Positions 1 through 57,840 of a stretch of 64,000 nucleotides of DNA are shown piece after piece. This DNA is from a virus. The DNA is taken from positions 252,095-316,094 of the IMG/VR virus record IMGVR_UViG_3300017917_003143; one strand, 5' to 3'. The notes under the pieces were generated by a model, which worked only from the letters and a program-made list of their open reading frames with translations, searched no databases and was not told the DNA's origin. Each line of letters starts with the position of its first letter. The first letter of the stretch is position 1. A program made the translations under genes and the position numbers.

Positions 1-3000
1 ATCCAAGGATCTTGCCTTGCAATGGATCAATGAAATCAAAATATTGTGTTACCTTTGATTCTAATTTGTCGTAAGAGAACACAGAGTTGATCAACTTGAC
101 ATCTACTATCGGTGTTTCTCTATAGATTGGGTTCCAAGCGGCCAGTCTATCTACGTTGTTTAACTGTGATATGCGACCATAGTCGCCAATGCTGTCACCA
201 AGATCATCCTGTGGAGATCCTACCAACAGTATACCGTTGAAATAGCTGACTGCTGTACCAAATTCATCCAAGGATTGCAGGGTTTCATCGTAGATCTGCT
301 GACCAAACACAAACTTGCTTGGATTTCTAATAGATCCGTTGGCCGATGACAACAAGTCATATGTGTACACCACGCCGCTTTCGCTCAATGGGTCAAAGAA
401 CTCTGTGGCTTTGCTGTCAAAATATGTGGCACCATTGTCGAATGTTGTTGGCTTGGCTGCTGTTCCTTGAGGAGAGCCCACTACCAGTGTGCGCGAATCA
501 TCGCTGATGGCCACTGATTCTCCAAAGTGCGCATAAGCGATTTGATTTGGAGCTTCAACTGTTTGTGTGTAATGCATTGGCTCAAGGCCAAGATCTGAAA
601 ACGCAGTTCCAACACCTGGTGATACCAACAATTGGCTGAAAGGTATGGCAGCATTTGAATTAGCGATGCTGATGGTTAGATAACCGTTGCTCACTGATGC
701 ACTGACATTGGGTATCAAGACTAGACCTGCTGTAGGTCCTGATGGTACAGGAGTAGCGGCCACATTGATGTCATTGGCATAGAGTTCTACCCAACTTGAC
801 TGCTGCCAGTAGGTAGTGTTATCTATGCTGACTGAAACTGGAACGCTTCTGATAGAACGATAAATCGTGACTCCATCAATTACAAATGTGTTAGCACTCC
901 ATCCGATAGAACTGTTCCATGGTGTAGGTGTTGACACTGAAATATCAACGTTGTTGATTCTCACTGTGTCGCCAGGTGTCAGTGTAGGATCCTGTTCAAC
1001 ACCGGTTATGATACCGTATAAACGATTTTGATTTACAAAACGTTCTACACTGCCAGCCTCTGGAAGAACTGCGGAATCGTTAGGTTGTCCAATGTACAGA
1101 CTGCAATTTGTAGGGCACTGATCAACTGCTTTACCAAAAGTTGCGCCGGCTTGTGGTGCATTGGAAGCCACAGCTTGCATCAATTGGAACTCATTGGTTT
1201 CAATCTCAATAGTATCGCCCACATTCAATGGATAGTCAATGGTCACTGTGTTTGCATTGTCCTCTACGAACTGTCCATTGTTGTTGAGCCCATCTGGAAT
1301 CAAGAATGTAGCATTGACTTTGACTGTAGCTGGACCGTTGAAATTTCTCAAGGTACTGTAAGTTGTGGTAGATGGATTGGTTACCGTGAATCTTTCTACA
1401 CAACGATCAAATACATAGACCTGGCCAGCTAATAATTTTCCACCCACAGTATCGTTGGGAGCACCAATCACTATCTGTCGGCCATCAGTGGTAGTAGTTA
1501 TTGAATGACCAAATCTTGCATTGGTTGGCAATCCTGGTACTGGCAAATAATCAACGTATTGCCAGTATGATATACTGGTCACAAGAATTGTTCCAAACAC
1601 CCCTTGCAAGAAAGTTATATCCTGTGTCAATGGATTGAATGTATAATCCATGTTGGGACGTTGTAATATGTCATTGACATACACGCTGAAACTGTAGATG
1701 TCTGTTGCAGTATAGAGTTCTTCAATATTAAACACTGTGGTTGGCGTATTTGGGAAGAACGTTTTGCTCTGTAAACGTATGATACGTATTTCGTCGCCAG
1801 TGTTAGGCGGGGTATCAAATACGACGTTTTCACCATCATATGTCCAGTCCACGTTGGCGGTCTTTGGCAAGTCGTTGACTGTGACACCAATCTGCTGGCT
1901 ACCAATGCCGCCACCTGCTGAATCATTGTCTACAACAATAGTATCTGCGATGTAGAATGTTGTGGTAGAACCATCACCAACAAAGTTCTTGGCTTGTAAC
2001 TGTACGTCAACTTTGTTGTAAGCATATACACGATTACCGGCAGGTGCACCAACATACATCCAACGTTCATCGGGGCTGATGGCCACGCTGTAACCATATT
2101 CATCATATAAGAATATGCTGATCAATGAACCATTGGGTGGTGCAGCCACTGGAGTAGAGTCAGTTGCGACCGATGTAAACACAATGTTAGGTGCTGAATA
2201 TGTCCAGTTGACACCGTAGACTTGTACTACATCATCAATCACTACACCGACCTTGGCTGGATCAGTTATGGTGATCGAACCTGATGGGTCGTAACTTGTT
2301 GTAACACCGTTGCCTGTGGTTTGATATAATCTATAAGGAACTTCTGTAAGTAGTTGGCTCTGGATAAAGTTGCCCGAATCAGAGTTACGATAGATAGCCA
2401 CTGCATAACCTTGATTGGCCCAGCTTCTTGGGGCGCCGGCGATACCCCAGCTGTTGTTACCACAGGCAACAGAATCACCGTAGCCAACAAAATTGTTGGC
2501 GCCCATGGTCAATAATATACTTTCAACGTACGATGTAGTACCACCTTTGGTGTATCCGTAGACTGCGCCTGCTTCGCTGTTATAGCCCGGAGCACCAACA
2601 ATGGCTGCCAGGCCGCCGAATCCTTGAGCGATAGAACTACCAAATCTTGAACCAACGATAGGTTCCAGCGGAACTAATTCAGTAGAGCTAGTGAAAGGAT
2701 CGATTTTCTGGTAGACTACCCAATGTCCTGTGCCATCATCATCAACCCAGGCTTTGTTTCCGGGCAGTAAACTGTTGGCATAGACCAGATTTGAAACATC
2801 ACTGGCCTGTGCCACACGCATGGTTTCAAGCACAAAGCAGATGCCAATGCCGTTTATTTGTGTCACTGCACCGCCTAGTGTGAGTTCCACTGTGACTGTC
2901 TTGAGATTCGGCACGCTAAGGACTCGATAAGCGCCATCGATACCTTCTCCAAAGTATTTGATCACGATCTGTGAGTTAGGCGAAAGTCCGTGCTGTCCTG

Positions 3001-6000
3001 CAAATGTAAAGGTGCAAGTTCCGTTGAGATTGTCTCGCACCTGTGTCATGTTGTAAATGACTAAATTGTTACGATAGATATTCCAATCATATTCGTTGTC
3101 TTTGGCCACCCATACACTGGTACCCACTGTGATGTTTTCAATGTCGTTGATTATGTTATCAAGATCGGTAAAATTAAACAGTTTGATATCTGCATCGTTC
3201 CAGTTTACATAACCTGCACTGGGTAGTTGGCTGTCGGTGGCACTGAGATCCGTGGTCGGTAAAATATTTGGAGAAGTGATTGGATAACTTTGTTTCCATA
3301 TATTAGATACCAAGATAGTTTGATCTGCTGTGCTAAACTGCTGTGGCTCAATAATCTCAACTGTGGAAGGATTGGCCAATAGCAGTGCTTCGTTCAAACG
3401 CAATTCAAAGTAACTGCGGTTGGCGTTGGCGCCGTAGACAGCTCGCTGGATAGCCCAGTTTTCAAATATTTCATATTCAGCTGTTTCTTTACCAAGGTTA
3501 GCTTTGGTAAAAATATCTGTAGCTTGGGTTGTACCTTTGGTTCCTAGGAATTGGCTGTAGATATTGACCTGACTGATATCGTCAAGATTCAAGTTCTGCA
3601 TGTAACGACGAGGACGGAAACCAATCAAGCCAAATGCAAACAAGTCTGCATCTCTTTCAAGGTTGGCGCTGTTGATATTATAGAAATTGCGAACTTCTGA
3701 GGAATTAGTGGCCGCATTAGGCAACAGACCTTTTTGTATGTCGTTGTAATCACTCTTGAGCCACACATTAAAGTCAAATTTATCAGTGGGCGGGATAATT
3801 TTTACCGCTGACCAGTAAGCGTCTTTGTACTTGACGATTTGTCCTTTAGAATAGCTACGGTTTGGAGACCATGCTTCAACGTTGTCTTGGTTGAGTATGA
3901 ATCCTTGTGCATCTAAGCTACCATTCCAGTCGTAGGTAGTGTAACCAATAAACAGCAAACGACTCTGACGAGCACCTGTGGCTGGATTGTAAATCAAGTC
4001 ATTGAAGATACTGACGTTATCAAACACTATCATGTGTTCATACGCTGTAAACTTTGCGTTGAGATAACTGAAAGTGTTGTTATTGACCGCACGTAGAGTA
4101 AGATCGTTTTCAAATCGCTCTACCACATAATCTTGACCTTGCAGGGCCTGTTTGTTCTGATTGAGTAATATATCCTCGGGTGCAGTGATGCTGAGAGGTT
4201 CGGCCACAAGATTTGGCTTCATCGCATTGAGTGTGTTGGCCACTGGGTTGATGTTGATCAAGCTACCTGTTGCCCAACCTTGACGGCTCCAATAGATAAA
4301 CTCTTGAGCCATTTGAGTCCAGTTCAAGATCCTACTGCCTTCTTTGTCCTCAAATGACATGCCTTGACGCTCTTGGAAAGCACCATAGCTCAACAAGAAA
4401 TCAACCACAGAGTTCACTGTGGTAAATTCGTATCCATAAGGAACTTGTACCACATTATTGCTGAAATCGTTGGGTGCTCTTACCACAGTGTCTGCTACTC
4501 TGATGGTGCGATAATTTCCGTTGGGCACACTGACCAATATTTCAAAATAAGGTCTGGTGGTTGAATATCCGTAGACTGCATAGCCAAGATCAGTTTTTTG
4601 TATGATCACTGAGCTCCAAGTCAATGTGGCCACTGTGGGATTTTTGTACAGTAGGTATTGATAGCTCTCGTCTGGCAGTAACAAACTGGTATTCAAACTG
4701 TTAGGACTTGATTTTTCTGTGTAAATCTTGGTATACTGCTTGTCTGAGAACGCGGCCAGACGATAGCATAGTCTTACATCAATGTTTTCCAGGACCACTT
4801 TGAGATCAGCGGTGCTATCCAATCCAGTTTGTCGGTTGTAGTCAACGATCCAGTTGATGTAACTGTTTTTGATTGTTCCGTTGCCATAAATCTCAATGTT
4901 TTCTGGTTGTAAGCGGAAACGATTATTGTATAGATATTGTCCAAAGTCGTTGTTGTATCTGTAAAGATCTCGATCAGCAAACAGAGCAAAATATTCTGCA
5001 GGGCGTGTCAGTGCCAATAAACGCTGTACTGCAAATGGCCAAGCACTGGACTTGCGCCACGAAGCTTCAACAGGGCCGTCATCGCCCACAGTCCAGCTCT
5101 TGCGGAAACTGCCTTGGTCATATTCGCCTACCATAACTTCAAAAGGTGACAGCAATTGACCTTCGGATCCCGATGGTATCACTGATGTCAGTCCGGGTCG
5201 CTTGTATTTGTTAATCACATAAGATCCTGCTGGATCCATTACACGACCGTCTTCAAGATCTTGCCATAATACCAAGTTTCCTGAAGTATACGGCGCCGGA
5301 CCGTACTCGTCTTCCCACCAAGTTGGCTTTTCGCTGAAGCCTAACATTTCCCATGGGCGAGTATTAGGAGCATCGGTATCATAGAAATAATTGTAAATGC
5401 CTCTCCAGGCACCCAACAATGTCTGATTGTTTAGTTTATTTTGGCTGGATGAATAATTCCATGTGAACTCATTGTCAGGAATATATTCTTGTTCTCTATA
5501 AGCCAGTTTGTTTGCACCGACCCAGGCCAGGAAACTGGTTCCTAAAATCTGTGTGATTTCGTTTTGTGTATAGTCTGTGGTGCGGAATTGTCCTGGAGCA
5601 ACGTCCTCAAATACCAATGGTATAGGATTGCTTTCTACTTTGAGATTGTTGTAGATACGTTTTTCAAATTCCAGTAATACTTCATCTCTGATATCGTTGT
5701 AGGCCACTGTGATTGAGCCGTCATGGCCACGTATCACAAATGTTGGTTGTACATAAGTATCATCGAGGAATTTTTGTGGCACATATGAAGGGTACAGACC
5801 TAACTTGGTTGGAGTCGATGGAACAAAGTTACCATAGGTAGTGGTGTATTCACGTATGGTCACCACATCGCCAATCTCTAATGGAACCAATATGGTCAAT
5901 CGAGGGCCATCAGTTGCCACGGTGTATTCAATGCTATCTCCCAACAATATTTCATTGTTGAGATATACCAAGACAGCTCGATAATTGGCTTGATCAAAAT

Positions 6001-9000
6001 CGTAGGTGTATAATGTATCAAATGTGTTGCTTGTGATTGGTGTTACAGTATAGACAGTTTCCTGGAAAGTTTCACCAGTTGGAATAGTGTCGGTCCAATA
6101 AAATGGAGTAACTTCAGTTTTGCCAAGATTTATCAAGCTGATGCATTCATCCAGTATTTCAGCCGAAGTCATGTTCTGGAAATTATTCTTGACTACTGTG
6201 TCCATCAACACATTCTTAAATTTTTCGTACTGGGCCGAAGAAAATTCAAGTGCCCGGAAGAAATCATATCCAGGATTGTTGATAAAGGTGCTGGCCATTG
6301 TCAGTGGCGCACTTTGTTGCATTATGATCTGGCCAAACGGAACTAAATCACCTAGGTCTCTTGAATTGTTTGGCCCATTGATGTCCCCTTGGAACTCTGG
6401 AAGATTTTGACAAATCGTTCCGTAGTGATTTCTTATGGTTCCCAGTGTGAGCTCAGGTACCACTGCATTCACAGCATTGTTTTCAAGATTCAGTGGTACA
6501 GAATAAAATCCAGTAGGACTTGCCACGTTGCTGACCACGCTGACTTCAACAGAAGATCCATCTGCTGGTTGATTGATGAAAGCGATAGTAGTTGAGTTAT
6601 CTGGATTTACAGTATAAGTGTATTCGTCGGGGGTGACAAATACAGCATTTACAAATACCTTGACTGGAATCGCTGATGATGTCACATCAACTGGAATGTC
6701 AATTACAAGATTTTCGCCAGTGACATAATTGAAACTGAAACTTTGTCGAGACACTACCTCAGTTTCTGCTGTTTTCCATCCCAGCAGTTTGGTAAATTCT
6801 GTACGATTTTGATACTGTCTTACTACTCCGTCGTTGATTGGAACTTCAATGCTGATCGTATCTTGGACATAGATAAATGTATCAATGTAAAGATTGTTGT
6901 CAAACACAATGTCGCCCACGTTGTTGATCGTGAGATACTTCAGTGGTTGACCAATGATGCTGTCAGTGACTCCTTCGCCCGGTGCGTAGCTGAATAATTT
7001 AGTACCTACAAAAGATGTACCTGGATACACCAAGCGATCACTGTAGCTGACGCCATTTTCATCAAATACATCAAACAACGGTGGCTGGTTCACGCCAGTT
7101 TTTTGTTGTGCTGGTATCCATGTAGAACCGTCAAACCAATATGTGGTTCCTTGTTGTGTGATTCCGCTGGTGACCAACACTGACTGATCAAACAACTGGT
7201 CAGGTGTGTTGAGATCTGCTGGTTGTAGATCAATGATTGGTGTATCACCTGGTGAAGGTTGTATGAATGTAACTTCGTAGATTTTATTTCTTACTTCAGG
7301 ATCAATATCCGCGGCAAAAATAACCCGGGTTCCATCCTGGAATGCATATCCATCAACGCTGTAACCAATACTACCATTGATGTTACTCATGGCATCAGTT
7401 TCACGGAAATCAATGATATTGATTGGTGGTAAACCTTCTGTACCAAAATCAAAAAGTTTCAAGCTGGGGACAAATTCAAGTATAGGACGTTTGGCTCGAT
7501 AATTGTTGTCCAGGATTGGAACTGTTCCGTTGTATTCTGCTGTGGCATTGATGATATCAACGTGGAACCAACGGTTACTACGGCTCCAGGCGTTGAAATC
7601 GTGGCTGGCTCGATTGATCGTGATGTAATCCTGATCCAAGGGTGCATTCAACGTGTCATCATACGGAGTAGCATCATACGGAGTAGAATCGTAAGGAACT
7701 GTAGTTGATCTAGTATAAGTCTCTGGAGTAATAAACCTAGTCACTGGCAACAATGTGATAGATGATCCTACTCCTTCAACATAGTATTCTTTGCCCGAAT
7801 ATGATTCTGGTATGGTTGGTCCTTGGAACTGTACCTTGAGTCCGTTGGAAAATACTACTCCATTAGGGCTGGTATATTCTTTAGAGCCAATAATATTGAC
7901 CAATCGAGCTGTAGTTGGTGTGCCGGTGGCTTGCTGATTCAGTGTCCATGTATTGCCGGTTCCGCTGACAAGATAAGTGCCTTCTGTGACTCCGCCTCCG
8001 CTGAGTAACATTCCAGGTAGTGGTGTGCCACCCAACGAACTTGTAAAGGTCAGAGTATTGCCTACTATGATCGGATCTATAAATGTTACAATAGGAGTCG
8101 TTACATCGTCGACGATGATTGGAACTTCTTGTGCGCTGTCTACTAATCTTATTAGGCCGAACAGTTCAGGATTATCTGCATCTTGGTAGTAAAGATAATC
8201 AAGGTCAGCTGTGATCAGCGGAACTCTTTCAAAAGTTCCAGACGCATTTTTATAAAAATAGATGTTGGAATATTGGGTACCGTACTGTACCAACAATTTA
8301 CTTAAATTATTAACTGGTTGATCTACAGTGAGTTTGATGTAAGGATTCAACGTATCGTCATAAACCAGATTGATGCGCCAGATACTATACTTCTGGCTAT
8401 CTAAAGTGATTTCTATTGTTTCATCAAACGGAGTATCGTCATATGGTTGTCCGGCACTGTCGAACAAGCCTGTGTAAAACCATCCTGCATCGCCAAGAAA
8501 AATTATAGTGCGGCCACCAATGTCTGTGACTCCGTCAATACCACCATACTTTGCGATAAATTCATCAAGATAGATATTGTTGATTTCGTCAAAATCTATA
8601 TTAGTTGCAAAGTCAACTGGGCCAGCATCAGCCAACTGATAATAGAAATTCTGTGCTGATTTTTCTGGAACATTAAAGGTTATCGTGCCGTTGTCATCGC
8701 CATTGTTGATTACACCTAGGACTTCTCGGCTGCTCTGATTTGGTGTTTGAGGCAGCACCCCTGATGTACCTGGCACAGACTGTATCCAGAAACGATGTCC
8801 GGTCTGTTGTACATTGAATTCATAAGAACCCTGGCGTACCAGTGTGATGGTAGGATTTGTGCCGGCCACTCCACTGAATGTGTAATTGTTGGTATTTCTT
8901 GTGACTGTGAAATCGTCTTCCAAAGGAATAGGATTAGCAAACACATCCACAGAGTCTGGGCCACCGGGCAACCAATAATACTGACTGAAGTTTACAAACT

Positions 9001-9382
9001 TATCAAAATCAACAAATGGGTCCCATGAATAGTACTGGCTGGTAAACAGTCGATCTGCTCGAGAAGTATTACCGCCCTTGACTCCAATAGAATCGACCAG
9101 TCCTGGATAAGTCAGCGCATCCAATACTGTGTTGGTATTGGGTTTTAAAAATACTGTGCCAGGCTCTAACTGATAGTCGGTTCTTTGTCTAGTTGGTTCA
9201 AGAACATAGTTGTCTTTGGGATTTACACCCGGGCCAACACGACGCCCAATAAAACCTTGCGTGGGCTTGAGCTTGGGATCTTGTACCAACTGATCCAGTG
9301 TCGCCGACAAGAACTGGCGATTGGTAGGTGTGCGAAAGATTTCTGGTAGAAAATCTACTGTACGAATTCTTGTATTGGCCAT
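1..9382 (-). CDS. Giant FG-GAP repeat virion protein, C-terminus beyond left edge
   Basis: The reading frame is open from the ATG at 9382 to the left edge, giving at least 3127 residues. The start lies one base after the stop of the gp6 gene, with GGAG upstream (minus strand), so it is probably translationally coupled. The N-terminus (TVDFLPEIFRTPTNRQFLSA) is of a type I associate with very large structural proteins of marine T4-like phages. Roughly residues 2240-3060 contain about six or seven FG-GAP-like units, for example RFGSSIAQG..IVGAPG, YGYSVAISPD..YVGAP, RFGHSITTT..VIGAPND and EFGTAVSY..LVGSPQDD, as in beta-propellers. Between them are beta-sandwich modules with GDGST..F and DWTY..I.F..PP..GDEI motifs, related to modules in the plus-strand fibres. 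It occupies the place of T4 gene 7 (after 25 and 6), so a baseplate-periphery or adhesin role is inferred, not shown. Confidence 0.8.
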   Translation of the reverse strand, partial: MANTRIRTVDFLPEIFRTPTNRQFLSATLDQLVQDPKLKPTQGFIGRRVGPGVNPKDNYVLEPTRQRTDYQLEPGTVFLKPNTNTVLDALTYPGLVDSIGVKGGNTSRADRLFTSQYYSWDPFVDFDKFVNFSQYYWLPGGPDSVDVFANPIPLEDDFTVTRNTNNYTFSGVAGTNPTITLVRQGSYEFNVQQTGHRFWIQSVPGTSGVLPQTPNQSSREVLGVINNGDDNGTITFNVPEKSAQNFYYQLADAGPVDFATNIDFDEINNIYLDEFIAKYGGIDGVTDIGGRTIIFLGDAGWFYTGLFDSAGQPYDDTPFDETIEITLDSQKYSIWRINLVYDDTLNPYIKLTVDQPVNNLSKLLVQYGTQYSNIYFYKNASGTFERVPLITADLDYLYYQDADNPELFGLIRLVDSAQEVPIIVDDVTTPIVTFIDPIIVGNTLTFTSSLGGTPLPGMLLSGGGVTEGTYLVSGTGNTWTLNQQATGTPTTARLVNIIGSKEYTSPNGVVFSNGLKVQFQGPTIPESYSGKEYYVEGVGSSITLLPVTRFITPETYTRSTTVPYDSTPYDATPYDDTLNAPLDQDYITINRASHDFNAWSRSNRWFHVDIINATAEYNGTVPILDNNYRAKRPILEFVPSLKLFDFGTEGLPPINIIDFRETDAMSNINGSIGYSVDGYAFQDGTRVIFAADIDPEVRNKIYEVTFIQPSPGDTPIIDLQPADLNTPDQLFDQSVLVTSGITQQGTTYWFDGSTWIPAQQKTGVNQPPLFDVFDENGVSYSDRLVYPGTSFVGTKLFSYAPGEGVTDSIIGQPLKYLTINNVGDIVFDNNLYIDTFIYVQDTISIEVPINDGVVRQYQNRTEFTKLLGWKTAETEVVSRQSFSFNYVTGENLVIDIPVDVTSSAIPVKVFVNAVFVTPDEYTYTVNPDNSTTIAFINQPADGSSVEVSVVSNVASPTGFYSVPLNLENNAVNAVVPELTLGTIRNHYGTICQNLPEFQGDINGPNNSRDLGDLVPFGQIIMQQSAPLTMASTFINNPGYDFFRALEFSSAQYEKFKNVLMDTVVKNNFQNMTSAEILDECISLINLGKTEVTPFYWTDTIPTGETFQETVYTVTPITSNTFDTLYTYDFDQANYRAVLVYLNNEILLGDSIEYTVATDGPRLTILVPLEIGDVVTIREYTTTYGNFVPSTPTKLGLYPSYVPQKFLDDTYVQPTFVIRGHDGSITVAYNDIRDEVLLEFEKRIYNNLKVESNPIPLVFEDVAPGQFRTTDYTQNEITQILGTSFLAWVGANKLAYREQEYIPDNEFTWNYSSSQNKLNNQTLLGAWRGIYNYFYDTDAPNTRPWEMLGFSEKPTWWEDEYGPAPYTSGNLVLWQDLEDGRVMDPAGSYVINKYKRPGLTSVIPSGSEGQLLSPFEVMVGEYDQGSFRKSWTVGDDGPVEASWRKSSAWPFAVQRLLALTRPAEYFALFADRDLYRYNNDFGQYLYNNRFRLQPENIEIYGNGTIKNSYINWIVDYNRQTGLDSTADLKVVLENIDVRLCYRLAAFSDKQYTKIYTEKSSPNSLNTSLLLPDESYQYLLYKNPTVATLTWSSVIIQKTDLGYAVYGYSTTRPYFEILVSVPNGNYRTIRVADTVVRAPNDFSNNVVQVPYGYEFTTVNSVVDFLLSYGAFQERQGMSFEDKEGSRILNWTQMAQEFIYWSRQGWATGSLININPVANTLNAMKPNLVAEPLSITAPEDILLNQNKQALQGQDYVVERFENDLTLRAVNNNTFSYLNAKFTAYEHMIVFDNVSIFNDLIYNPATGARQSRLLFIGYTTYDWNGSLDAQGFILNQDNVEAWSPNRSYSKGQIVKYKDAYWSAVKIIPPTDKFDFNVWLKSDYNDIQKGLLPNAATNSSEVRNFYNINSANLERDADLFAFGLIGFRPRRYMQNLNLDDISQVNIYSQFLGTKGTTQATDIFTKANLGKETAEYEIFENWAIQRAVYGANANRSYFELRLNEALLLANPSTVEIIEPQQFSTADQTILVSNIWKQSYPITSPNILPTTDLSATDSQLPSAGYVNWNDADIKLFNFTDLDNIINDIENITVGTSVWVAKDNEYDWNIYRNNLVIYNMTQVRDNLNGTCTFTFAGQHGLSPNSQIVIKYFGEGIDGAYRVLSVPNLKTVTVELTLGGAVTQINGIGICFVLETMRVAQASDVSNLVYANSLLPGNKAWVDDDGTGHWVVYQKIDPFTSSTELVPLEPIVGSRFGSSIAQGFGGLAAIVGAPGYNSEAGAVYGYTKGGTTSYVESILLTMGANNFVGYGDSVACGNNSWGIAGAPRSWANQGYAVAIYRNSDSGNFIQSQLLTEVPYRLYQTTGNGVTTSYDPSGSITITDPAKVGVVIDDVVQVYGVNWTYSAPNIVFTSVATDSTPVAAPPNGSLISIFLYDEYGYSVAISPDERWMYVGAPAGNRVYAYNKVDVQLQAKNFVGDGSTTTFYIADTIVVDNDSAGGGIGSQQIGVTVNDLPKTANVDWTYDGENVVFDTPPNTGDEIRIIRLQSKTFFPNTPTTVFNIEELYTATDIYSFSVYVNDILQRPNMDYTFNPLTQDITFLQGVFGTILVTSISYWQYVDYLPVPGLPTNARFGHSITTTTDGRQIVIGAPNDTVGGKLLAGQVYVFDRCVERFTVTNPSTTTYSTLRNFNGPATVKVNATFLIPDGLNNNGQFVEDNANTVTIDYPLNVGDTIEIETNEFQLMQAVASNAPQAGATFGKAVDQCPTNCSLYIGQPNDSAVLPEAGSVERFVNQNRLYGIITGVEQDPTLTPGDTVRINNVDISVSTPTPWNSSIGWSANTFVIDGVTIYRSIRSVPVSVSIDNTTYWQQSSWVELYANDINVAATPVPSGPTAGLVLIPNVSASVSNGYLTISIANSNAAIPFSQLLVSPGVGTAFSDLGLEPMHYTQTVEAPNQIAYAHFGESVAISDDSRTLVVGSPQGTAAKPTTFDNGATYFDSKATEFFDPLSESGVVYTYDLLSSANGSIRNPSKFVFGQQIYDETLQSLDEFGTAVSYFNGILLVGSPQDDLGDSIGDYGRISQLNNVDRLAAWNPIYRETPIVDVKLINSVFSYDKLESKVTQYFDFIDPLQGKILG

Positions 9383-9383
9383 G

Positions 9384-12300
9384 TTATATTACTCCGCTGT
9401 TGGGTGCTGTGCGGAGTTCGCTTGCGGTAAGGGCGTCAATGACTTCAATGTCGTTGACTGTGGCTGCATTGACAAATATTTCATCGGCAGAACAACGTAT
9501 TTCATATAAGTCACCAAAACTCTTGAGCGGATCTTGTGGAACAAGCACTACAGTGGAAATAATATCTCCTAATTCTTTGTGCAGATAGGCAGCCAGTTCT
9601 GAAAAGTAGAATGTCAATCCAAAATCCCATTTGTCAATGGTAAAATATTCGTTGATGGCTGCTACCATACGGCTCTTGATTTCGCTGACACTGATCACCG
9701 AATTGGCACTGCGCACTACTTTCAAAGTGGCACGTAGCTCAGGAGCGGCTTTGACTCCAAACAATGGTTTGAATACCACTGAATTTAAAATAACGTTGTC
9801 GCTGATCATTTTGTACTGTTGCAAACTATTGTAAGATGTAGTAAGTTCATCTATGGTAGGTGGCTCTGGTTCTGGCACAGTACCAGTAGAATCTTTAATG
9901 TAATTCTGATAAGAATTGTAATAAGCTGTTGTGACCAAATAGATATCAATGATGTTGCTCGATCCTGGATCAATCCTACGACTCAAAGGTGCATTGTGAC
10001 GATACTGGAAATACAATCCTTGACGACCAGTCTTGGCTATCAGACCTGTGACTTGATTCAGAGTCCTCACGCCATTGAAAGCAATATTTAATTCATAGAA
10101 GACTAACTCGTCAGTGGCATAAAAATATTGTCCGTCGCCGTACTCGGCCTTGATCAACTCTATCTGGTCTTTGGTAGCATACTGACTGATCACTGTTCCT
10201 TCAGCCAGAGGTAAGAATCTTTCAAGATTGTCAAAGTCTACTGTCTGTTGGAAGAACACATATTTGCTTGTTGGGTTGATCTCTGGTGCTACCAAGGTTT
10301 CAAAATAATCTGGATCATCGGCCACACCGTCGTTGTCAAAGTCTTTGAAACTGATCTGCACTTGGAAATCATCTACGAAACCATCACTTTGGATAGGCTG
10401 GCCAATGATGTCCATGATAATATCACTGTTTTGTGGCAACGAGGTATCTGGCAAATTATTTGTTTTTAAACAGTTGATAAAGTCATTGATCACTGTTCCG
10501 GTGCGTGGATCGTACACTTGCTGTGTGCCATCGTAGAAGAATCTTGTCTGTAGCAAACTGGCCCAGAATCTTTGCAGTGCTCGATAAGTCACTGTATATG
10601 TCACACCATCGGTTTCAAATGCCACCAGCCAAGAATTATCTAATCCTTGTCCTGATTGATCTTGCTGATATGCCAAACTAAATGTAGTGGCTGGATCAAG
10701 GTTTTGTGCTGTAATCACATACCATTCGCCGGTGAGGTTGTTATATCCTAAGCCAAAGTTACGATACAGTTCAATCTGGTCAGTCATGGTCTGTTCAACT
10801 GATGTAGGTAGATCAGTTACAAAGGTTGGTATGACTTGAACTGGTATAGCATCTGTGGGTATAAAATTGTTCAGTGTAACTGGTCCGATACCGTTGGCAA
10901 AGTTTCCATTGCCAAAGTTTGTACCGTCAAGCACAAGATTACTGATGGTCGCCCACAATACCACCTTGTCATTGGGCAGTGTAGGCAACCCTAATTTCAA
11001 TCTATTGTTCTGATCAAAGTAATATCCAGCGGGTGGCACAAACTTGATCAATGACCCTTCGGACATGTATTTTTTGTTGTCGCTGGTCTGCGGGCCAATA
11101 GGAGCAGGTGCCTGCGAAGCGATGAATTGGAAATATCCAGTGGTTTCGTTGGCCGCAGTAGTGCTCTGTATCCACTCTATTCCAATTGGAATCAAGTTGG
11201 GTCTTAGGAAATTCTGATAATAAAATTCCAACATGCCTCTGCTGGCTAGCACGGGTTCAACTTCGTTGGCGATAACATTGGCAATATCGTTCTTGTCAAT
11301 GAACGTGAATGTAAAACTTGGGCTTGCAGTATTTTCATAGATCAAGCCGTCGCTGGCAAAAATATTAGTTGATGAATATTTGCCTGTGATATCTACCAAA
11401 TCAAGATAACGACTGGTTCCAATGGAACTGCGGTTCACGGCCTTGGATTTGATGATAGTTCCGAACAGTGTGTATGGGAAGTTGTTGTAGTCTTCGCCGT
11501 TGACCATACGGTTCTGTGTGTAGTAACGAGCAGGAGCACGTTGCTTGATGTCAGCGATGTTTTCTCTGCTGGCTGCATTAGAAACAGGTTGGCTAAGGCC
11601 ACAAGTAAATGTGATAGTTTCTAACTTACCTGTGCGGCTGATATATCCAATAGAAATCTGGATAGCCTGCATCTCTTCTGGATTGATGATATACTGTAAT
11701 CCATTGGATGCACGTACATAGGTACGGAATGTGCCCACAGGAATCTCTGTAAACACGCCGTCACCAAAGTTAAGATTGATCTGGTCATTGGTACGACTGG
11801 TAACGCTGAAGAATTTTCTAGCATCAGGCGCCAACTGTTCCACAGCGGCTGAGTACAAGTTGGGAACTTTGTCCCATTCGTATTGTATGTTGCCTATGTC
11901 ATCGAGCTGATATAACCATACATCGTCTTCGTTGATACCTTCGATGTTGACATTGACCACGCGGTTTGAAATACGCTCGCCAAGATTAAAGTCTTGATTC
12001 TGTAGTGTACCTTGTTTGAAATAAAAGAAGAACCCTGTGTTAGGGCTGGCAAATCCCAAACGATCATTGCGATACATCACATTGAATATACCCGATGGAC
12101 GTGGTGATGGCTCATATACAAAATCAGCGTCTTGTGTGGTAGAGCTCACTGCTTCAAATGTCATTGAGCTACCATCAACTGTGGCACTAAATGGAACCAC
12201 TGGCAAATATCCTGGTACCAAGTTAATGCTGTATTCTTGTGTTTCAATGCCAAGAATGTTTTTCGTAGATCCTGGTTTGCCAAAACGCTGGCTGTCTACC

Positions 12301-12791
12301 AAGGCAGAGTTAATGATGACTGTGAACTGTTCTTGCCAGTTTGGATTGGTAGTATCATTCCAGTTCACTGTGACACCACTAAGGTTTACTCCGTTGTAGT
12401 CGATCACGTTTTCTGTGGTAGAAACGTTGAACACTTTGAGATAGCCTTGTGCTTCTTGATTTCGTTTGGGAGTATAGCTGACAAGGTTGGCCAGCTTGAC
12501 CACTGAATCGCGTCGTTCGGCTGTGTCTAAAAAGTTTTCGCGGATGTTTAAATCGTTGCGGAAGGCCAATGCTTGGCCCATGAACGCCATGACGTCGAGC
12601 AGAGCAACAAACTCTGACGACTCAATGTAGTCATTGAAATTTTCTGGATAATAGATGCGAATGTAGTCAATGAAACTCTTGCGTAGGGTTTCAAAATCGT
12701 AACTTTGGAAATCCGCTTCACGATAAGTCGTGTAGATGCGTTTCCAATCCTCTACTCCAAATATCGCGGTCTGTCGTGTAGTTTTAGCCAT
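9384..12791 (-). CDS. gp6: Baseplate wedge protein gp6
   Basis: At 1135 residues this is longer than T4 gp6 (about 660). Residues 20-110 read like the conserved N-terminus of the gp6/baseplate J family: a phrase of the type FIDYIRIYYPENFNDYIES, then LLDVMAFMGQALAFRNDLN and NFLDTAERR. gp6 dimers form the inner ring that joins the wedges around the hub and carry the conformational change at contraction. It follows gp25 directly, as in T4. A clear ribosome site (GGAAGG, minus strand) precedes the ATG, and a late promoter core lies 17 bases upstream of the start. The extra 450 or so residues, rich in beta-strand-like segments, are probably insertions exposed on the baseplate. Identification rests on the N-terminal motif plus gene order. 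Confidence 0.85.
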   Translation of the reverse strand: MAKTTRQTAIFGVEDWKRIYTTYREADFQSYDFETLRKSFIDYIRIYYPENFNDYIESSEFVALLDVMAFMGQALAFRNDLNIRENFLDTAERRDSVVKLANLVSYTPKRNQEAQGYLKVFNVSTTENVIDYNGVNLSGVTVNWNDTTNPNWQEQFTVIINSALVDSQRFGKPGSTKNILGIETQEYSINLVPGYLPVVPFSATVDGSSMTFEAVSSTTQDADFVYEPSPRPSGIFNVMYRNDRLGFASPNTGFFFYFKQGTLQNQDFNLGERISNRVVNVNIEGINEDDVWLYQLDDIGNIQYEWDKVPNLYSAAVEQLAPDARKFFSVTSRTNDQINLNFGDGVFTEIPVGTFRTYVRASNGLQYIINPEEMQAIQISIGYISRTGKLETITFTCGLSQPVSNAASRENIADIKQRAPARYYTQNRMVNGEDYNNFPYTLFGTIIKSKAVNRSSIGTSRYLDLVDITGKYSSTNIFASDGLIYENTASPSFTFTFIDKNDIANVIANEVEPVLASRGMLEFYYQNFLRPNLIPIGIEWIQSTTAANETTGYFQFIASQAPAPIGPQTSDNKKYMSEGSLIKFVPPAGYYFDQNNRLKLGLPTLPNDKVVLWATISNLVLDGTNFGNGNFANGIGPVTLNNFIPTDAIPVQVIPTFVTDLPTSVEQTMTDQIELYRNFGLGYNNLTGEWYVITAQNLDPATTFSLAYQQDQSGQGLDNSWLVAFETDGVTYTVTYRALQRFWASLLQTRFFYDGTQQVYDPRTGTVINDFINCLKTNNLPDTSLPQNSDIIMDIIGQPIQSDGFVDDFQVQISFKDFDNDGVADDPDYFETLVAPEINPTSKYVFFQQTVDFDNLERFLPLAEGTVISQYATKDQIELIKAEYGDGQYFYATDELVFYELNIAFNGVRTLNQVTGLIAKTGRQGLYFQYRHNAPLSRRIDPGSSNIIDIYLVTTAYYNSYQNYIKDSTGTVPEPEPPTIDELTTSYNSLQQYKMISDNVILNSVVFKPLFGVKAAPELRATLKVVRSANSVISVSEIKSRMVAAINEYFTIDKWDFGLTFYFSELAAYLHKELGDIISTVVLVPQDPLKSFGDLYEIRCSADEIFVNAATVNDIEVIDALTASELRTAPNSGVI

Positions 12792-12835: not shown

Positions 12836-13210
12836 TTATACGTAGGAAGCAGTGCGTGTCTGCTGATCGAAAAACACACTCAATCGTTCGGCATTGGTGC
12901 CTTGTACTGTTTGTATTTCCAGTTCAACCAAGATGCCGTTAATCTGTGGATATGCTGTGGCATCTGACAGATAGATCCTAGGGTCTTGCCCAACAATGCG
13001 TTGCATTTCTTGTATGATGAGCTCTGCTGTTTGTTCTGTCTGTGGTTCAAAAATCAAGTTCCACATAGTGGTGCCCACATCTGGACGACCCACTTTTTCA
13101 CCTTGACGTATATTGAAGTAATTCAAAAGGTCACGCTTGATCAATGCAAAGTCTGTGAGCACAAACTTTTTATATTGGTTAATAGTATTGAATCCAATGA
13201 ATGTAGGCAT
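12836..13210 (-). CDS. gp25: Baseplate wedge protein gp25
   Basis: A 124-residue protein of the GPW/gp25 family, which shares a fold with T4 gp25 and the TssE protein of type VI secretion and helps initiate sheath polymerisation at the baseplate. The family core is visible: ALIKRDLLNYFNIRQGEKVG, then RPDVGTTMWNLIFEP, with the FEP triplet in the position of the conserved EPR-like motif. Length agrees with T4 gp25 (132). The gene lies between the gp5-like spike and gp6, the same order as in T4. There is no Shine-Dalgarno sequence: the late promoter core TAAATA ends only seven bases before the ATG, so a leaderless or near-leaderless message is predicted. Confidence 0.9.
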   Translation of the reverse strand: MPTFIGFNTINQYKKFVLTDFALIKRDLLNYFNIRQGEKVGRPDVGTTMWNLIFEPQTEQTAELIIQEMQRIVGQDPRIYLSDATAYPQINGILVELEIQTVQGTNAERLSVFFDQQTRTASYV

Positions 13211-13217
13211 AGTATAC

Positions 13218-13224
13218 TATTTAA
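13218..13224 (-). promoter_or_regulatory. Late promoter core TTAAATA abutting gp25
   Basis: Minus strand reads CTTAAATAGTATACTATG. The core overlaps the stop codon of the upstream 780-residue gene and ends seven bases before the gp25 ATG, predicting a 5' leader of about two bases at most. Confidence 0.6.
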
Positions 13225-15563
13225 GCCGTTTGTATCGGAGGTAATGGGGGTAATCCGCGGCGTCTGCGTTCAGCATTTACACGGGCCAGCACTATTTCGT
13301 CGTCGCCTGAATAAGTGAGTTGAGCATCCGTTGTTCCTGCATAAAGACTGGATTCGTTGGAAAATCCAGGAACTGGAATCTTAGCATTGCCAATTATAGA
13401 GCTCACAGCACTGTCGATGCTACCACGATTGACAGTATTAGTCGAGCCTGGCGGCACTGTGCTGTATCCTTTGATAGCTTCGCTGATTTTTTGATTGGCC
13501 AGGCTCACTGCAAATTGTCCGCCGCGGACCAGTTTGTTAATGCTGTCAACCAGTGTATTATTACCAATCGTTCCTTTGATCCATGAGTTTATTGTTTCTG
13601 GTCCATATTTTGACCCAGCTTGTACCAAACCTGCCAACTTGACTGGATCTTCTTGCCCTGTGACCACACCTGCTGATCTTAGATTCTGCAAAGATGCTTG
13701 GTACAGATCTGATTGCACAGCATCCTGGAGATTGGGATCAGATAATAGTGCTGTGGCGCTGGTGACTCCTGCTTGTCCAGTCCAAACACTAGGACTCGAA
13801 AGTATATCTGTGGTAGTTGCTGTACCATCAGTCAAGTAAAATTCCACAGTGCCTGGTTTGAGATATCCAGCATCCTCCAGCTGTTGGGGAGTCAACCCAT
13901 ATTTTCCCACACCGTATTCGTCGCTGATTTCAAAAAAGTCTTGCGGTACGTCTCGGCTGGCCTGGGCCAACATGCCAGTGACTTGATCTGGTTCAATACT
14001 ACCAACACTGATCGTAGCCGGAGCTTGATTTTCGTAATCTTCTGCAGATATCGCATCAAACTCAGTGTCTTGTATCTTTTCTAATCTGTCTGTGATTTCT
14101 GCTGATGTTGGTACTTCACCACCTGAGGCTTGCAATTCTGTTGTGGCTGTTACTCCGCGACCATGGAAAGGATAAGGTTCATGTGTGGGAGCCCGAGTCA
14201 CGATAGTTTGTAGTGCGCCTGACTGCGACACCCATCCACGATTTGGTTCAAATTTAGTGTCGGGTAGATTTTGTTTGACTATCTCTGATGGCTTTGGAAC
14301 ATCGGGTGCATCGCCGCTGTTGAGAGCTATACAACCTGCTGATAATACCATATTGCTGCCACCATTCCATGTGCCGCTCTTTGTGGCTTTGAGGCTCAGT
14401 GAGCCATCGCTTTTGACTCCCAAGAAAGAATCGCTGTACAACAGCATGGCTTTTTTGGCATTGGCCTGGATGAGGTTTCCTTCTAACGTCAATGCTTGTT
14501 CGCCTCTGATGTTGATTAACCCTTTGGCATTCATGTTGATACTACGATCAGCATGTAAATTTATGTCGCCTTGGCTCCGCAAGTTGATTGAGTTGGTAGC
14601 ATAAACATCCACTGTTCCTTGGCTGCCAAATTCCAACCAAGTCTGTCCATTGGCATGTGTGATATAAAAGCAATCACCAGAGTCGCTCATAGTGATCTGA
14701 TGACCTTTAGCTGTGCGGATACGCACCAACTGGTCTGATCCAACAAGATCACCGTCGTCCATGACAAAACTATGTCCACCACGACGTGCTATCACTGTGG
14801 CATCTTGAGGTTGTACCGCGCCTGCTTCAAGTCGCTGTTTGATATCTTGTTCGCTGAGTCCACCAAGGTAGATGGGACGTCCAGGTGTGCTGATACCGTA
14901 AACTGCACTGGGGCTTTCTCGCTGTGCGTTTGATCCTATGGGTCCACGCACTGGATCATTGATCAATCCTTGCTGTAACAGTATGGCAGCCACGACGCTG
15001 TGTACCGGTTTAGTTTGATTGTAAAATTGAGGATTCTCATCCAGTGCTTTGTTGTTGATATTGAGCTCAACCACTGGCAACTGGGTGCTGTTCTGGAAAT
15101 ATTGGCTCTGGCTGTTGTTATCCAGTTTGAATTTCTTGCTGGCGCCAATGGCCGGAAGCATGTGATTGAGTGCTGGCTCAACTATGGCTCCTAGATAGTA
15201 TCCATAGTTGGAGTCGCCAGACGCAAAGAAACAAATAAGATTGGTACCAATGTCCGGCGGTGTAAACCACATACCATAGCTTTGTCTGTTGTTTACATAA
15301 CCACCTTCACCAGTTTGCTGATCCACTGGTGGATTGGTTGTTCCATAAAAGGGTGATACTGGTGTTACGGTGCGCCACAAGTCAGGATTGTCCTTGTCTG
15401 GACCAGCAAAATCTTCAATCCAAACTTTGACTCGACCACCGCGTATGTTGTCAACTACTTGTCGTACTTCGCCTACATACATGCCCACCTGGGTGGGAGC
15501 ATTGCCTCGATCTAATTTATAGGCACCTGGTATGCCCGAAGTTCGTTGATTAAATTCTGCCAT
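13221..15563 (-). CDS. gp5: gp5-like baseplate hub spike protein without lysozyme domain
   Basis: A 780-residue protein. Residues 20-140 look like the gp5 N-terminal OB-fold (VGMYVGEVRQVVDNIRGGRV, then KVWIEDFAG and a run of aromatic-rich strands ending in GYYLGAIVEP). Residues 300-400 are the short-period beta-helix typical of gp5/VgrG spikes (SINLRSQGDINLHADRSINM and following repeats). T4 gp5 has a lysozyme domain between these two parts. None is recognisable here, and the gene at 27841 carries a muramidase domain instead. The long C-terminal part (400-780) is low in motifs and ends in a basic DEIVLARVNAERRRRG tail. The start at 15563 has no obvious ribosome site. Function (membrane-piercing spike on the hub) is inferred from family and position before gp25. 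Confidence 0.8.
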   Translation of the reverse strand: MAEFNQRTSGIPGAYKLDRGNAPTQVGMYVGEVRQVVDNIRGGRVKVWIEDFAGPDKDNPDLWRTVTPVSPFYGTTNPPVDQQTGEGGYVNNRQSYGMWFTPPDIGTNLICFFASGDSNYGYYLGAIVEPALNHMLPAIGASKKFKLDNNSQSQYFQNSTQLPVVELNINNKALDENPQFYNQTKPVHSVVAAILLQQGLINDPVRGPIGSNAQRESPSAVYGISTPGRPIYLGGLSEQDIKQRLEAGAVQPQDATVIARRGGHSFVMDDGDLVGSDQLVRIRTAKGHQITMSDSGDCFYITHANGQTWLEFGSQGTVDVYATNSINLRSQGDINLHADRSINMNAKGLINIRGEQALTLEGNLIQANAKKAMLLYSDSFLGVKSDGSLSLKATKSGTWNGGSNMVLSAGCIALNSGDAPDVPKPSEIVKQNLPDTKFEPNRGWVSQSGALQTIVTRAPTHEPYPFHGRGVTATTELQASGGEVPTSAEITDRLEKIQDTEFDAISAEDYENQAPATISVGSIEPDQVTGMLAQASRDVPQDFFEISDEYGVGKYGLTPQQLEDAGYLKPGTVEFYLTDGTATTTDILSSPSVWTGQAGVTSATALLSDPNLQDAVQSDLYQASLQNLRSAGVVTGQEDPVKLAGLVQAGSKYGPETINSWIKGTIGNNTLVDSINKLVRGGQFAVSLANQKISEAIKGYSTVPPGSTNTVNRGSIDSAVSSIIGNAKIPVPGFSNESSLYAGTTDAQLTYSGDDEIVLARVNAERRRRGLPPLPPIQTA

Positions 15564-18594: not shown

Positions 18595-18897
18595 TTAGAA
18601 TCCCAAGGCGGCTTTGAGTGTGTCAATTTTTGGAATGTAAATCTGGACACCTTCTCGGAAATCGCCCAGGGGATCAGTCAAAGTATTTGGATTGCGTTGG
18701 GCAAACACCCACCACAGTCCAGCATCGCCATACAAGTCATACGCCAGCAAATCTGGGCGCAAATTGTAGGTGGCATTGATTTTGAACAGTATGTCATCGA
18801 CCTGGCGAGGTATAGGGCGATTGGTCATGAACCCAAGATAGATATTGTTTACCTTGGGTGTTGAAAAATATGGGCTCGTAGGAACATACACAGACAT
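18595..18897 (-). CDS. gp53: Baseplate wedge protein gp53
   Basis: A 100-residue protein. The central motif INATYNLRPDLLAYDLYGDA, followed by GLWWVFAQRNPNTLTDPLGDF and a final VQIYIPKI, is typical of gp53-type baseplate wedge proteins, whose C-terminal part resembles a LysM fold. T4 gp53 is longer (196 residues); short versions are usual in marine relatives. gp53 clamps neighbouring wedges together and binds gp6 and gp25. The ATG follows the stop of the upstream gene by one base, indicating coupled translation. Both neighbours are baseplate genes. Confidence 0.85.
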   Translation of the reverse strand: MSVYVPTSPYFSTPKVNNIYLGFMTNRPIPRQVDDILFKINATYNLRPDLLAYDLYGDAGLWWVFAQRNPNTLTDPLGDFREGVQIYIPKIDTLKAALGF

Positions 18898-45462: not shown

Positions 45463-48400
45463 ATGCCAATTACACGGATTAAAAATAACCAAGTTACTGA
45501 TGCGTCAGCCGGTAACATTTACCTGGGTATCAATGCCGCAGTTAAACTGCAGGACTACTCAATCACAGCTGGTAAGATTGCCAACAGCTTGGTCTACGGA
45601 TCAGACCTTACAGTTACAGGTAACTTAACAGTCAATGGTCAAACAACTACTATCGATACGGTCAGTGTTGTCATTGAAGATCCTATACTGTATTTGGCCG
45701 CAAATCAAACAGGCTCTCCAAGTTTAGACATTGGTTACATTGGTGAGCGTGGTACCAGCCAAAATATTGCTTTTGTTTGGGACGAATCCGCAGGTGAGTT
45801 TGTCACAGTTTATACCAACGACACCACGACCAACAGCACTGTAACCATTGCCAGCTACGCCAACTTCCATACCAACGATGCCAACATTGGTGGTAACATC
45901 GTAATCAACGGCACATCGAGTTTTGTTGGAAACATAACAGGCAACTTGGCAGTAACAGGTAACTTCCGTGCTGGTAATATCGCTACCGCAGGACAAATTT
46001 CTGCCACTGGTAATATTTCTGGTGGTAATTTAATTTCCAACGCCGCTATATCTGCGGCAACAACTTTAAGTGTAACTGGCAACGCCAACGTTGGCAATCT
46101 TGGCACAAACATCATTATAGCTACAGGTAATATCACCAGCTCTGCAAATGTACAAGCTGGTAACTTGATCGCCAATGGTGCTGTGATTGGCAACGTAACA
46201 GTCACAGGCAACTTGAGTCTGGGTAATCTCAGCGTTACTGGAGTAATCAATACCACAGGCAACATCACTGGTGGAAACTTGGTTTCCAATGCCATGGTAT
46301 CAGCCGCTACCACAGTCAATGCTACTGGTAATATCACTGGTGGTAACTTAGTATCTAATGCTTCTATCTCAGCTGCCACTACAGTCAACGCCACTGGCAA
46401 CATCACTGGCGGTAATTTAATATCCAATGCCGCTGTTGTGGCTTCAGGATTGATTTCGTCGGGTACAACTATCAGTGCTACTGGTAACATTACCGGCGGT
46501 AATATTATTTCTAACTCTTTGATACAAGGTGGAAATCTAAGTATCACAGGAGAGGCGCTGATTGCTGGAAACTTGACAGTCCAAGGCAACTTGACATACA
46601 TCAACATTGATGATTTGCGTGTTGAAGATCCAATCATCCAGTTGGGCGGCGGTGCCAACGGTAATGCTCTAACAACCAACGACGGTAAAGACCGCGGTGT
46701 GTTGATGACCTACTACACATCGGCGCAAGGCAATGCGTTCATGGGTTGGGATAACTCAACTGGTAACATGATCATTGCTCCAAACGTATCGTTGTCTGGT
46801 GAAATAGTCACGGTCAACGGTTGGGGTAACTTCCAATCAGGTAACGTTTTTGCCACAGGCAATATCACTGCCACAGGCAACATAGCTGGTAACTTTGTAG
46901 CACCTGGATCTAACACCCAGGTCATGTACAACAATAACGGTCTCATTGCTGGTGATTCGGGCATGACCTATAACGCAACCACAGATGCACTTACTGTGGT
47001 TGGAAACATCACTGGTGGTAACTTAGGTACCGCAGGTCAAGTCACTGCCACAGGTAATATCACTGGCGGTAATATTATCACAGCTGGTAACGTCAACGGT
47101 AACGGTGCTTACTTCACCGGTAACATTACCACACTGGGTAACATCAATGCCACAGCCAACGTTATAGCTACAAACTCTGGTGTGTTTTACGGTAACTCAG
47201 TCACAGGTAATGCCGCACTGTTTGCAGGTGTACCTGGATTTACCACCTTGGGTTCAAACGTTGTTGTACAGTTTGCTGGTAACGTCAACAACTACAGCCA
47301 GATCAACTTTGAGAATACTAACTCAGGCAACCGTGCATCTACAGATTACATCCTAACCAATGATCAAGGTACAGACAGCACATACTTTGCTGACTGGGGT
47401 ATTGCATCAAGCAATCATGACGATCCTACTTTCTTTGGTGATTCAGGAACTAAAAACGATGCTTACTTGTATGTAGTTGGTAACTCATCCACTGGTTCAG
47501 GCAGCCAAAACGTTGGTAACTTGATCTTAGGTTCAACCAATGGCAACGTTAAGACTTTCGTAGGCAACACAGCACAAGCCAATGTAATAACTACAGCGGC
47601 CACAACTGGTTTCTACATTGAAAAAGGCAACTTATACACTGCTAATATCACTACCACAGGTAGCCGCATCACAGTCAACAACGGTACAGCTGATATTGAC
47701 TTTGCTGTCAATGGTACATCAGCTAATATATTCTACATTGATGCAGGCACTGGCACAGCCAGCTTTGGTACTTCAACACAGACTACCAATGCTATAGTAG
47801 CATTTAACGCTACAAACTCTATCCTGGCTCCTGTTGGTAATACAGCACAGCGTCCTGGTACAGGTGTTGCTGGTATGGTACGTTTTAACACCACAACATC
47901 TAGCTTGGAGTTCTATGATGGCACACAGTGGGTATCCACAGGTACTATCTTTACAGTGGTCCAAAGCCAAACATTCAATGGCGATGGTACAACTGTAAAC
48001 TTTACAATCAACTCTGGCTACACCACAGTCAGCTGTTTGGTTTCTATCAACGGTATTTTGCAAGTTCCAGTGACAGCCTATGCTGTGTCGGGTACAACAC
48101 TGACATTTACAGAAGCTCCTGCTGTGGGCGACTTGATCGAAGTGCGTGAGATTGTTACAACTGTTGCAGTTAAAGGTATCACCAACGCCAACGGTAGTGC
48201 TGTAGTTGAAGTATCTGATACTACCAACTATATCCAAACCACTGGTAACATCATACCTTCAGGCAACGTATTGTACAACCTAGGATCTGCTACAAACAGA
48301 TTCAAAGACATATACCTAGCTGGTAACTCTATCACACTCGGTAACATTGTTCTCAAGAATACATCAGGCAATACTCTGTCATTCTTTGGGCCAGACGGTA

Positions 48401-49026: not shown

Positions 49027-49045
49027 TCGGTGCTTCTGTACCACA

Positions 49046-49075
49046 AAATAGGGCTACTCGTGGCCCTATTTTTTT
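49046..49075 (+). terminator. Intrinsic terminator after the 1187-residue fibre gene
   Basis: AAATAGGGC (49046-49054) pairs with GCCCTATTT (49063-49071) and is followed by T-run to 49075. A late promoter for the next gene starts three bases later. Confidence 0.85.
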
Positions 49076-49077
49076 CC

Positions 49078-49084
49078 ATAAATA
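49078..49084 (+). promoter_or_regulatory. Late promoter core ATAAATA for the 1226-residue fibre gene
   Basis: Reads TCCATAAATATTGGG, with TAAGG upstream of the ATG at 49106. Confidence 0.65.
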
Positions 49085-49105
49085 TTGGGTAGACTAAGGT
49101 AAAAA

Positions 49106-52786: not shown

Positions 52787-52792
52787 TAAATA
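52786..52792 (+). promoter_or_regulatory. Late promoter core ATAAATA for the 405-residue fibre protein
   Basis: Reads ACTAATAAATATGATACAGG, overlapping the stop of the previous gene; ATG at 52810 follows CAGGAATAACAC. Confidence 0.6.
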
Positions 52793-52809
52793 TGATACAG
52801 GAATAACAC

Positions 52810-54698: not shown

Positions 54699-55123
54699 TA
54701 CTGTTGTTGAACAGTCGACATCTTTTGTTTGACTTCTTCAAAGTTTACAGTAGACCATAAGCCAGGATGCAGTGGTCTTGGCCATGTGTTGGAATCAATC
54801 CATGCCCAGCCTTGATGTTCATCATTGAGTGTAGGAGTAAACTCTCCAGCTACACTACAAAAGAACGTATGATAAGAAAAATTTCCGTCAGGGCTGGTAA
54901 ATTTTTCAATTGGTACCAACTTGATTTCGTTGGGCCAAAATCCTAATTCTTCAACACACTCTCTTTTGATCGTTTCTAACAATGTTTCATTGGATCTAGC
55001 CTTGCCGCCAGGAAGGCCCCAGGTACCGGGATTTCTGTCGTCATTGCGTAGTAGATAGAGATATCTATCAGTGGATATGCTATAAAACCAAACTCCGACT
55101 GCGTTCAAAGGACCAAACTCCAT
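54683..55123 (-). CDS. Nudix hydrolase
   Basis: A 146-residue protein. Nudix box at about 39-61: GGKARSNETLLETIKRECVE followed by ELGF, fitting GX5EX7REUXEEXGU. N-terminal AVGVWFYSISTDRYLYLLRN and LPGGKA are the preceding strands. The class hydrolyses nucleoside diphosphates linked to other groups (for example dNTP, NDP-sugar, ADP-ribose or capped RNA); substrate cannot be told. Its start overlaps the gp15 gene by 19 bases, so it is made from the same minus-strand late transcript as gp14 and gp15, unusual for a metabolic enzyme. T4 has NudE, but similarity beyond the box is not evident. Confidence 0.9.
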   Translation of the reverse strand: MEFGPLNAVGVWFYSISTDRYLYLLRNDDRNPGTWGLPGGKARSNETLLETIKRECVEELGFWPNEIKLVPIEKFTSPDGNFSYHTFFCSVAGEFTPTLNDEHQGWAWIDSNTWPRPLHPGLWSTVNFEEVKQKMSTVQQQYQTSQ

Positions 55124-57821: not shown

Positions 57822-57840
57822 AATTTTTGAGCTCTAAAAC

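Follow-up and report, generated by a model that had tools for sequence, protein, structure and literature searches.

A predicted integrin-alpha-type FG-GAP propeller between two backbone blocks of a giant protein of an uncultured jumbo phage

The window analyzed here, a stretch of 64,000 nucleotides from the viral record IMGVR_UViG_3300017917_003143 (positions 252,095 to 316,094), opens inside a giant gene on the minus strand, whose open reading frame extends past the window edge. This gene lies directly downstream of a gp6-like gene, which itself follows a gp25-like gene, and other genes with matches to baseplate families are encoded nearby:

2..9382, minus strand: giant gene, residues 1-3127 of 4911 (complete gene G000:C1:246741-261476)
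9384..12791, minus strand: gp6-like baseplate wedge gene, 1135 aa (phrog_10646, 1.8e-285; phrog_219, 2.8e-20; weak Gp6-like_1st)
12836..13210, minus strand: gp25-like baseplate wedge gene, 124 aa (GPW_gp25, 6.1e-07)
13221..15563, minus strand: gene of a baseplate hub/tail lysozyme family, 780 aa (phrog_13211, 8.2e-30)
18595..18897, minus strand: gp53-like baseplate wedge gene, 100 aa (phrog_7145, 8e-22; phrog_232, the T4 gp53 family, 2.4e-4)

The sequence-only reading had described an open reading frame of more than 3100 residues that is incomplete in the window. The complete gene was obtained from the parent record, a contig of 343,632 bases, where it consists of a single open frame encoding a protein of 4,911 amino acids (544 kDa, pI 4.3); stops and frameshifts were looked for over its full length there and none was found. 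As the same frame is complete at about 4.6-5.2 kaa in independent related IMG/VR contigs, its length is not an assembly artefact. An assembly chimera or a frameshifted pseudogene is refuted by the intact frame and by a propeller that stands in register across these many independent contigs, and we regard such an origin as extremely improbable.

BLAST comparisons with eight cultured jumbo phages clarify that the protein is conserved up to residue 2010-2130 or so and again from about 3070-3108 to about 3700. The following parts of this backbone lie in the window:

8933..9382, minus strand: conserved N-terminal block, residues 1-150 (BLAST: PA5oct 5e-23, Phosso 2e-24; alignment)
2984..7885, minus strand: conserved backbone block, residues 500-2133 (BLAST: PA5oct 1e-89, CBB 4e-60, Vibrio 2.275.O 5e-94; alignment)
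2..142, minus strand: start of the second conserved backbone block, residues 3081-3127, continuing to 3710 outside the window (BLAST, alignment)

Residues 3092-3403 of the second block match PA5oct at 8e-51 and other phages as well, and phrog_10938, the family of the RaK2-like giant virion proteins, matches the protein at 1.4e-295. Profile searches with the backbone blocks against PDB sequences gave nothing below E 0.04. The cultured homologs are virion proteins: the record of the PA5oct homolog carries a note of virion detection by ESI-MS/MS, and 17 unique peptides of phAPEC6 gp245 (382 kDa), a homolog by position and match, were detected in virions (PMC7247149).

Between the two backbone blocks common to RaK2-like jumbo phages lie FG-GAP units. 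The Pfam family FG-GAP_2 (PF14312) matches the giant protein with E = 2.7e-15 and three individually significant stretches; its score of 56.7 bits compares with a curated cut-off of 23, and the match is above the cut-off in a search of the genome as well. A profile built from seven units chosen by eye in the protein itself recovers seven units and none elsewhere in the protein:

2543..2647, minus strand: FG-GAP unit 1, residues 2246-2280 (FG-GAP profile)
2378..2485, minus strand: FG-GAP unit 2, residues 2300-2335 (FG-GAP profile; weak in leave-one-out)
2003..2101, minus strand: FG-GAP unit 3, residues 2428-2460 (FG-GAP profile; PF14312 match)
1397..1516, minus strand: FG-GAP unit 4, residues 2623-2662 (FG-GAP profile)
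1025..1141, minus strand: FG-GAP unit 5, residues 2748-2786 (FG-GAP profile; weak in leave-one-out)
350..529, minus strand: FG-GAP unit 6, residues 2952-3011 (FG-GAP profile; PF14312 above cut-off)
155..265, minus strand: FG-GAP unit 7, residues 3040-3076 (FG-GAP profile; PF14312 match; weak in leave-one-out)

Because this profile was trained on those same units, leaving each out in turn is the fairer test; four of the seven are then found at E <= 5e-5 and the other three weakly (E 0.06-0.16). The relatives offer stronger support than recovery by the protein's own profile, since every long-enough IMG/VR relative among the loci L008-L106 has four to seven units in register in the same part of the protein. 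The number of blades counted by profile search is thus seven. The propeller had been expected in the C-terminal third, as a C-terminal fusion; it is placed centrally instead, residues 2246-3076 corresponding to 46-63% of the full protein, as a domain between two conserved backbone blocks.

Structure prediction is in line with the profile searches:

95..2728, minus strand: seven-bladed FG-GAP propeller with interleaved modules, modeled residues 2219-3096 (AlphaFold2, Foldseek)

The AlphaFold2 model of this region, obtained with 52 sequences, has a pLDDT of 89.7 and a pTM of 0.89. When it is compared with the PDB by Foldseek, the first match is a chain of the cyanophage A4 tail complex, and most of the top 50 are integrin alpha headpieces (E from about 1e-8, probability 1.00, TM by target <=0.61), some other large propeller proteins being among the top matches as well. 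Among viral models, the best match is a fragment of an uncharacterized protein of an uncultured caudovirus; lower-ranking matches include FG-GAP proteins from giant viruses, a cyanophage S-TIM5 virion protein, and an Atu_ph07 protein that stands alone. The DxDxDG calcium-loop motif was sought in the propeller residues and is absent; such loops are typical of integrins and are not required for the Pfam FG-GAP family. The claim of an integrin-type FG-GAP propeller is therefore borne out by the Pfam match, the seven units, and the confidently predicted fold, and according to the model residues 2246-3076 form an FG-GAP or integrin-alpha-type propeller, which we do not place among the integrins proper.

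Small beta modules are interleaved with the blades. A VNG/DYT profile, built from twelve modules chosen by eye, finds 13 modules in the giant protein, four of which lie between blades, and finds one more in a fibre-like ORF on the plus strand:

2105..2254, minus strand: VNG/DYT beta module between units 2 and 3, residues 2377-2426 (VNG/DYT profile)
1772..1897, minus strand: VNG/DYT beta module between units 3 and 4, residues 2496-2537 (VNG/DYT profile)
1562..1696, minus strand: second VNG/DYT beta module between units 3 and 4, residues 2563-2607 (VNG/DYT profile)
1187..1333, minus strand: VNG/DYT beta module between units 4 and 5, residues 2684-2732 (VNG/DYT profile)
45463..49026, plus strand: fibre-like ORF with one VNG/DYT module, residues 860-896 (profile; weak Phage_T7_tail)
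3812..3871, minus strand: CBM5/12-like stretch, residues 1838-1857 (PF02839; position by pattern)

The module in the fibre-like ORF reaches 23 bits (E 7.8e-8 in a small target set), and the same residues match Phage_T7_tail weakly (6e-5), just under the curated cut-off. The proposed relationship of the beta modules to the plus-strand fibres thus holds for this one fibre by profile, although BLAST of the giant protein against the other large ORFs of the window found no match. Another fibre-like ORF on the plus strand (window 40790-45394, 1534 aa) matches a FapA beta-solenoid at 7.5e-11 in residues 459-578. The giant protein contains four CBM5/12-like stretches (PF02839, 1.3e-13 over all four), of which three, placed by pattern at residues 3769, 3894, and 4187, lie beyond the window end.

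The contents of the propeller site differ strongly among relatives. Measured as the residues between Q2133 and Q3081 on an alignment of 29 sequences, the inserts comprise 112 residues in XbC2, 113 in CBB and in GAP32, 174 in Vibrio 2.275.O, 277 in PA5oct, 384 in SCTP-2, 1388 in Phosso, and 1395 in Atu_ph07, and FG-GAP units are not detectable in the inserts of these eight cultured relatives. Among 50,697 phage records, the propeller region has no match at E <= 0.01, and backbone residues 1180-2133 match 87 records. Nine loci from metagenome-assembled genomes (MAGs) were also examined for FG-GAP units. L138 and L142 contain six divergent units each, with an hhalign probability of 98% to the propeller profile; L139 has three weak units before the contig ends, the identical copies L140 and L141 have one, and in L144-L146 none was convincing. 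Given such differences, the site acts like an insertion slot whose contents can be exchanged. Cultured giant phages are known to encode this protein family, but all propeller-bearing members found to date come from uncultured phages.

Several side observations concern these relatives. L140 and L141 are two contigs of one Neomarinimicrobiota MAG with the same locus, and the jumbo phage was probably binned with the MAG. In the Phosso and Atu_ph07 giants (L004 and L005), residues of about 1660-3190 hold some 1,390 residues with GxGY-type repeats as judged by eye. In the record of Sinorhizobium phage Phosso (L156, PV764938.1), two giant hypothetical genes next to each other on the minus strand (48338-57826 and 57900-68978) have FG-GAP matches by the dozen; the whole record has 66 such matches and its baseplate-locus giant has none. 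Atu_ph07 gp320 (L155, NC_042013.1, 243018-244199, minus strand), annotated as a hemagglutinin protein, has FG-GAP matches, adjoins genes annotated as tail sheath, and is likely the standalone propeller matched by Foldseek.

The gene order bears on where in the virion the protein may reside. The order gp25-gp6-giant also occurs in Phosso, Atu_ph07, PA5oct, CBB, XbC2, GAP32, and phAPEC6; Vibrio 2.275.O, in which neither gp25 nor gp6 carries such an annotation, has it by position. By annotation or position it is found in seven of the eight cultured BLAST relatives and additionally in phAPEC6; in SCTP-2 the gene upstream of the giant is an unannotated ORF of 9.3 kb. From this order we infer a location of the giant protein in the baseplate. 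The sequence-only reading had likened the order to T4 25-6-7. Its placement of the giant gene after gp25 and gp6 stands, but the likeness to T4 does not, as gene 25 of T4 is found at 115 kb next to gene 26, away from gene 6. The order resembles Mu 46-47-48 instead, and in P2 genes J and I are adjacent. When the gp8 and gp10 families were sought in the phage's own genome, phrog_977 gave no match in a search run without a positive control, and phrog_958 gave two short weak matches elsewhere.

Homology to the wedge proteins encoded at the corresponding position is not detected by sequence. The gp7 HMM phrog_964 has no match in the phage's own genome, the Pfam gp7 domains found in T4 gp7 are absent from the giant protein at E <= 1, and hhalign of eight giant segments against a five-sequence gp7 profile gives probabilities below 1%. 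P2 gpI is structurally related to T4 gp7. A gpI profile compared with gp7 as positive control is negative too, meaning that this level of divergence is invisible to gp7/gpI profile tests; because this control fails, the gp7 negatives lack power. Similarly, Tail_P2_I (PF09684) has no match at E <= 10 in the phage's own genome and six cultured relatives, and hhalign of the giant protein against P2 gpI and Mu gp48 detects no homology, with the same gpI-gp7 control failing. For the CBB homolog, AlphaFold2 gave a poor model of the first 1,200 residues (pLDDT 47), and Foldseek found no match to it below E 0.001. One sequence feature provides a lead and only that:

3455..3538, minus strand: family-conserved KGT...EW block (KGT...ENW here), residues 1949-1976 (resembles a P2 gpI block; lead only)

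The family-conserved KGT...EW (residue 1949) and KPYH (3666) resemble P2 gpI and follow one another as they do there, on either side of the propeller. When 54 windows of the RaK2-like alignment were scanned against the gpI profile, the two that contain the KGT block scored highest, with a single-comparison P of about 0.03 for this block that is uncorrected and concerns a motif already noticed by eye. A regular expression for the ordered motifs matches seven of 29 giants and none of 348 other ORFs, too few giants to decide.

It may be that the giant protein is unrelated to gp7 and gpI and is a peripheral tail protein merely encoded after gp6. All sequence and profile tests against T4 gp7, P2 gpI, and Mu gp48 are negative, and T4 gp7 is smaller by a factor of three to five; the gp25-gp6-giant order in most cultured relatives examined, with its resemblance to Mu 46-47-48, and the family-conserved KGT...EW block within the top-scoring windows against the gpI profile speak against it. 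We give this possibility somewhat less than an even chance, and it is compatible with a wedge-associated form of the reading that we prefer, namely that the protein is the giant virion protein of RaK2-like and related jumbo myophages, probably a wedge or wedge-associated subunit in the gp7/gpI position, with the propeller in a site of its backbone. More tentative, and something we lean slightly against, is the stricter version in which it belongs to the gp7/gpI kind of wedge subunits and its core is interrupted by an exchangeable site, occupied by the propeller in the uncultured clade and, in cultured relatives, by unrelated modules or next to nothing.

Substitution patterns inform on what the propeller might do. 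Compared with the closest relative, L086, the propeller has a dN of 0.069 and a dS of 1.6, and the backbone dN is about the same (0.063-0.068). Among more distant relatives, the propeller diverges faster (mean identity 49% versus 61-64% for the backbone), a pattern that a surface-exposed or ligand-binding domain could show as well. Purifying selection on the propeller favors a conserved structural or docking role, with which a conserved ligand is still compatible, and seems to argue against a fast-evolving host-range module. It had been suggested that the propeller is a receptor- or glycan-binding domain fused to a wedge protein, and it would then determine adsorption. The integrin-type fold found by Foldseek, the CBM5/12-like stretches elsewhere in the protein, the faster divergence at larger distances, and the separate FG-GAP proteins of related jumbo phages are in accordance with such a function; the lack of the DxDxDG motif and a dN to the nearest relative as low as that of the backbone are not, and we consider it rather unlikely.

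In the mechanism that we propose, the giant protein would most likely take the gp7/gpI position in the baseplate, as a subunit of the wedge or associated with it. In a large uncultured clade, one site of its backbone appears to hold a complete seven-bladed integrin-alpha-type propeller of about 830 residues, interleaved with small VNG/DYT beta modules. The propeller may serve as a rigid domain docking fibres, neighboring wedges, or a conserved surface ligand, and glycans might be bound by the four CBM5/12-like stretches. Jumbo phages thus have, among their largest virion proteins, one that is modular: relatives differ by entire domains in what its site contains, and in a wide environmental clade this exchangeable site is occupied by a complete predicted propeller of the integrin type. 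If the protein is a wedge subunit, it would offer a way into how baseplates of giant phages enlarge and how their fibres are anchored. The literature searched contains no paper joining jumbo phages, FG-GAP, and baseplates, and none describing this propeller.

As giant virion proteins of jumbo phages, the family is of an ordinary kind; its variant with an integrin-type propeller in the exchangeable site is unusual and well supported. PA5oct gp355, phAPEC6 gp245, CBB gp236, GAP32_230, and Atu_ph07 gp180 (phrog_10938) are homologous to the giant protein in their backbone, whereas the cultured members of phrog_10938 examined lack an FG-GAP propeller and have about 110-1,400 other residues at the site. 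Atu_ph07 gp320 and Phosso ORFs 107 and 108 possess FG-GAP repeats within the same broad group of jumbo phages, but are encoded by separate genes, unlike the propeller inserted in the baseplate-locus giant. T4 gp7 shares with the giant protein its position directly after gp6; it has 1,032 amino acids versus 4,911 and no detectable sequence homology, and the giant lacks the Pfam gp7 domains. P2 gpI and Mu gp48 likewise follow a gp6-like gene, and P2 gpI (Tail_P2_I, PF09684) has a KGT...EW block and then a KP[YA][HS] motif in the same order as the giant, but both are proteins of about 180 amino acids and PF09684 does not match the giant. The likeness to the integrin alpha headpiece consists in FG-GAP units folding as the same kind of beta-propeller, at about 10% identity, whereas the propeller of the giant protein lacks DxDxDG and has beta modules inserted between its blades.
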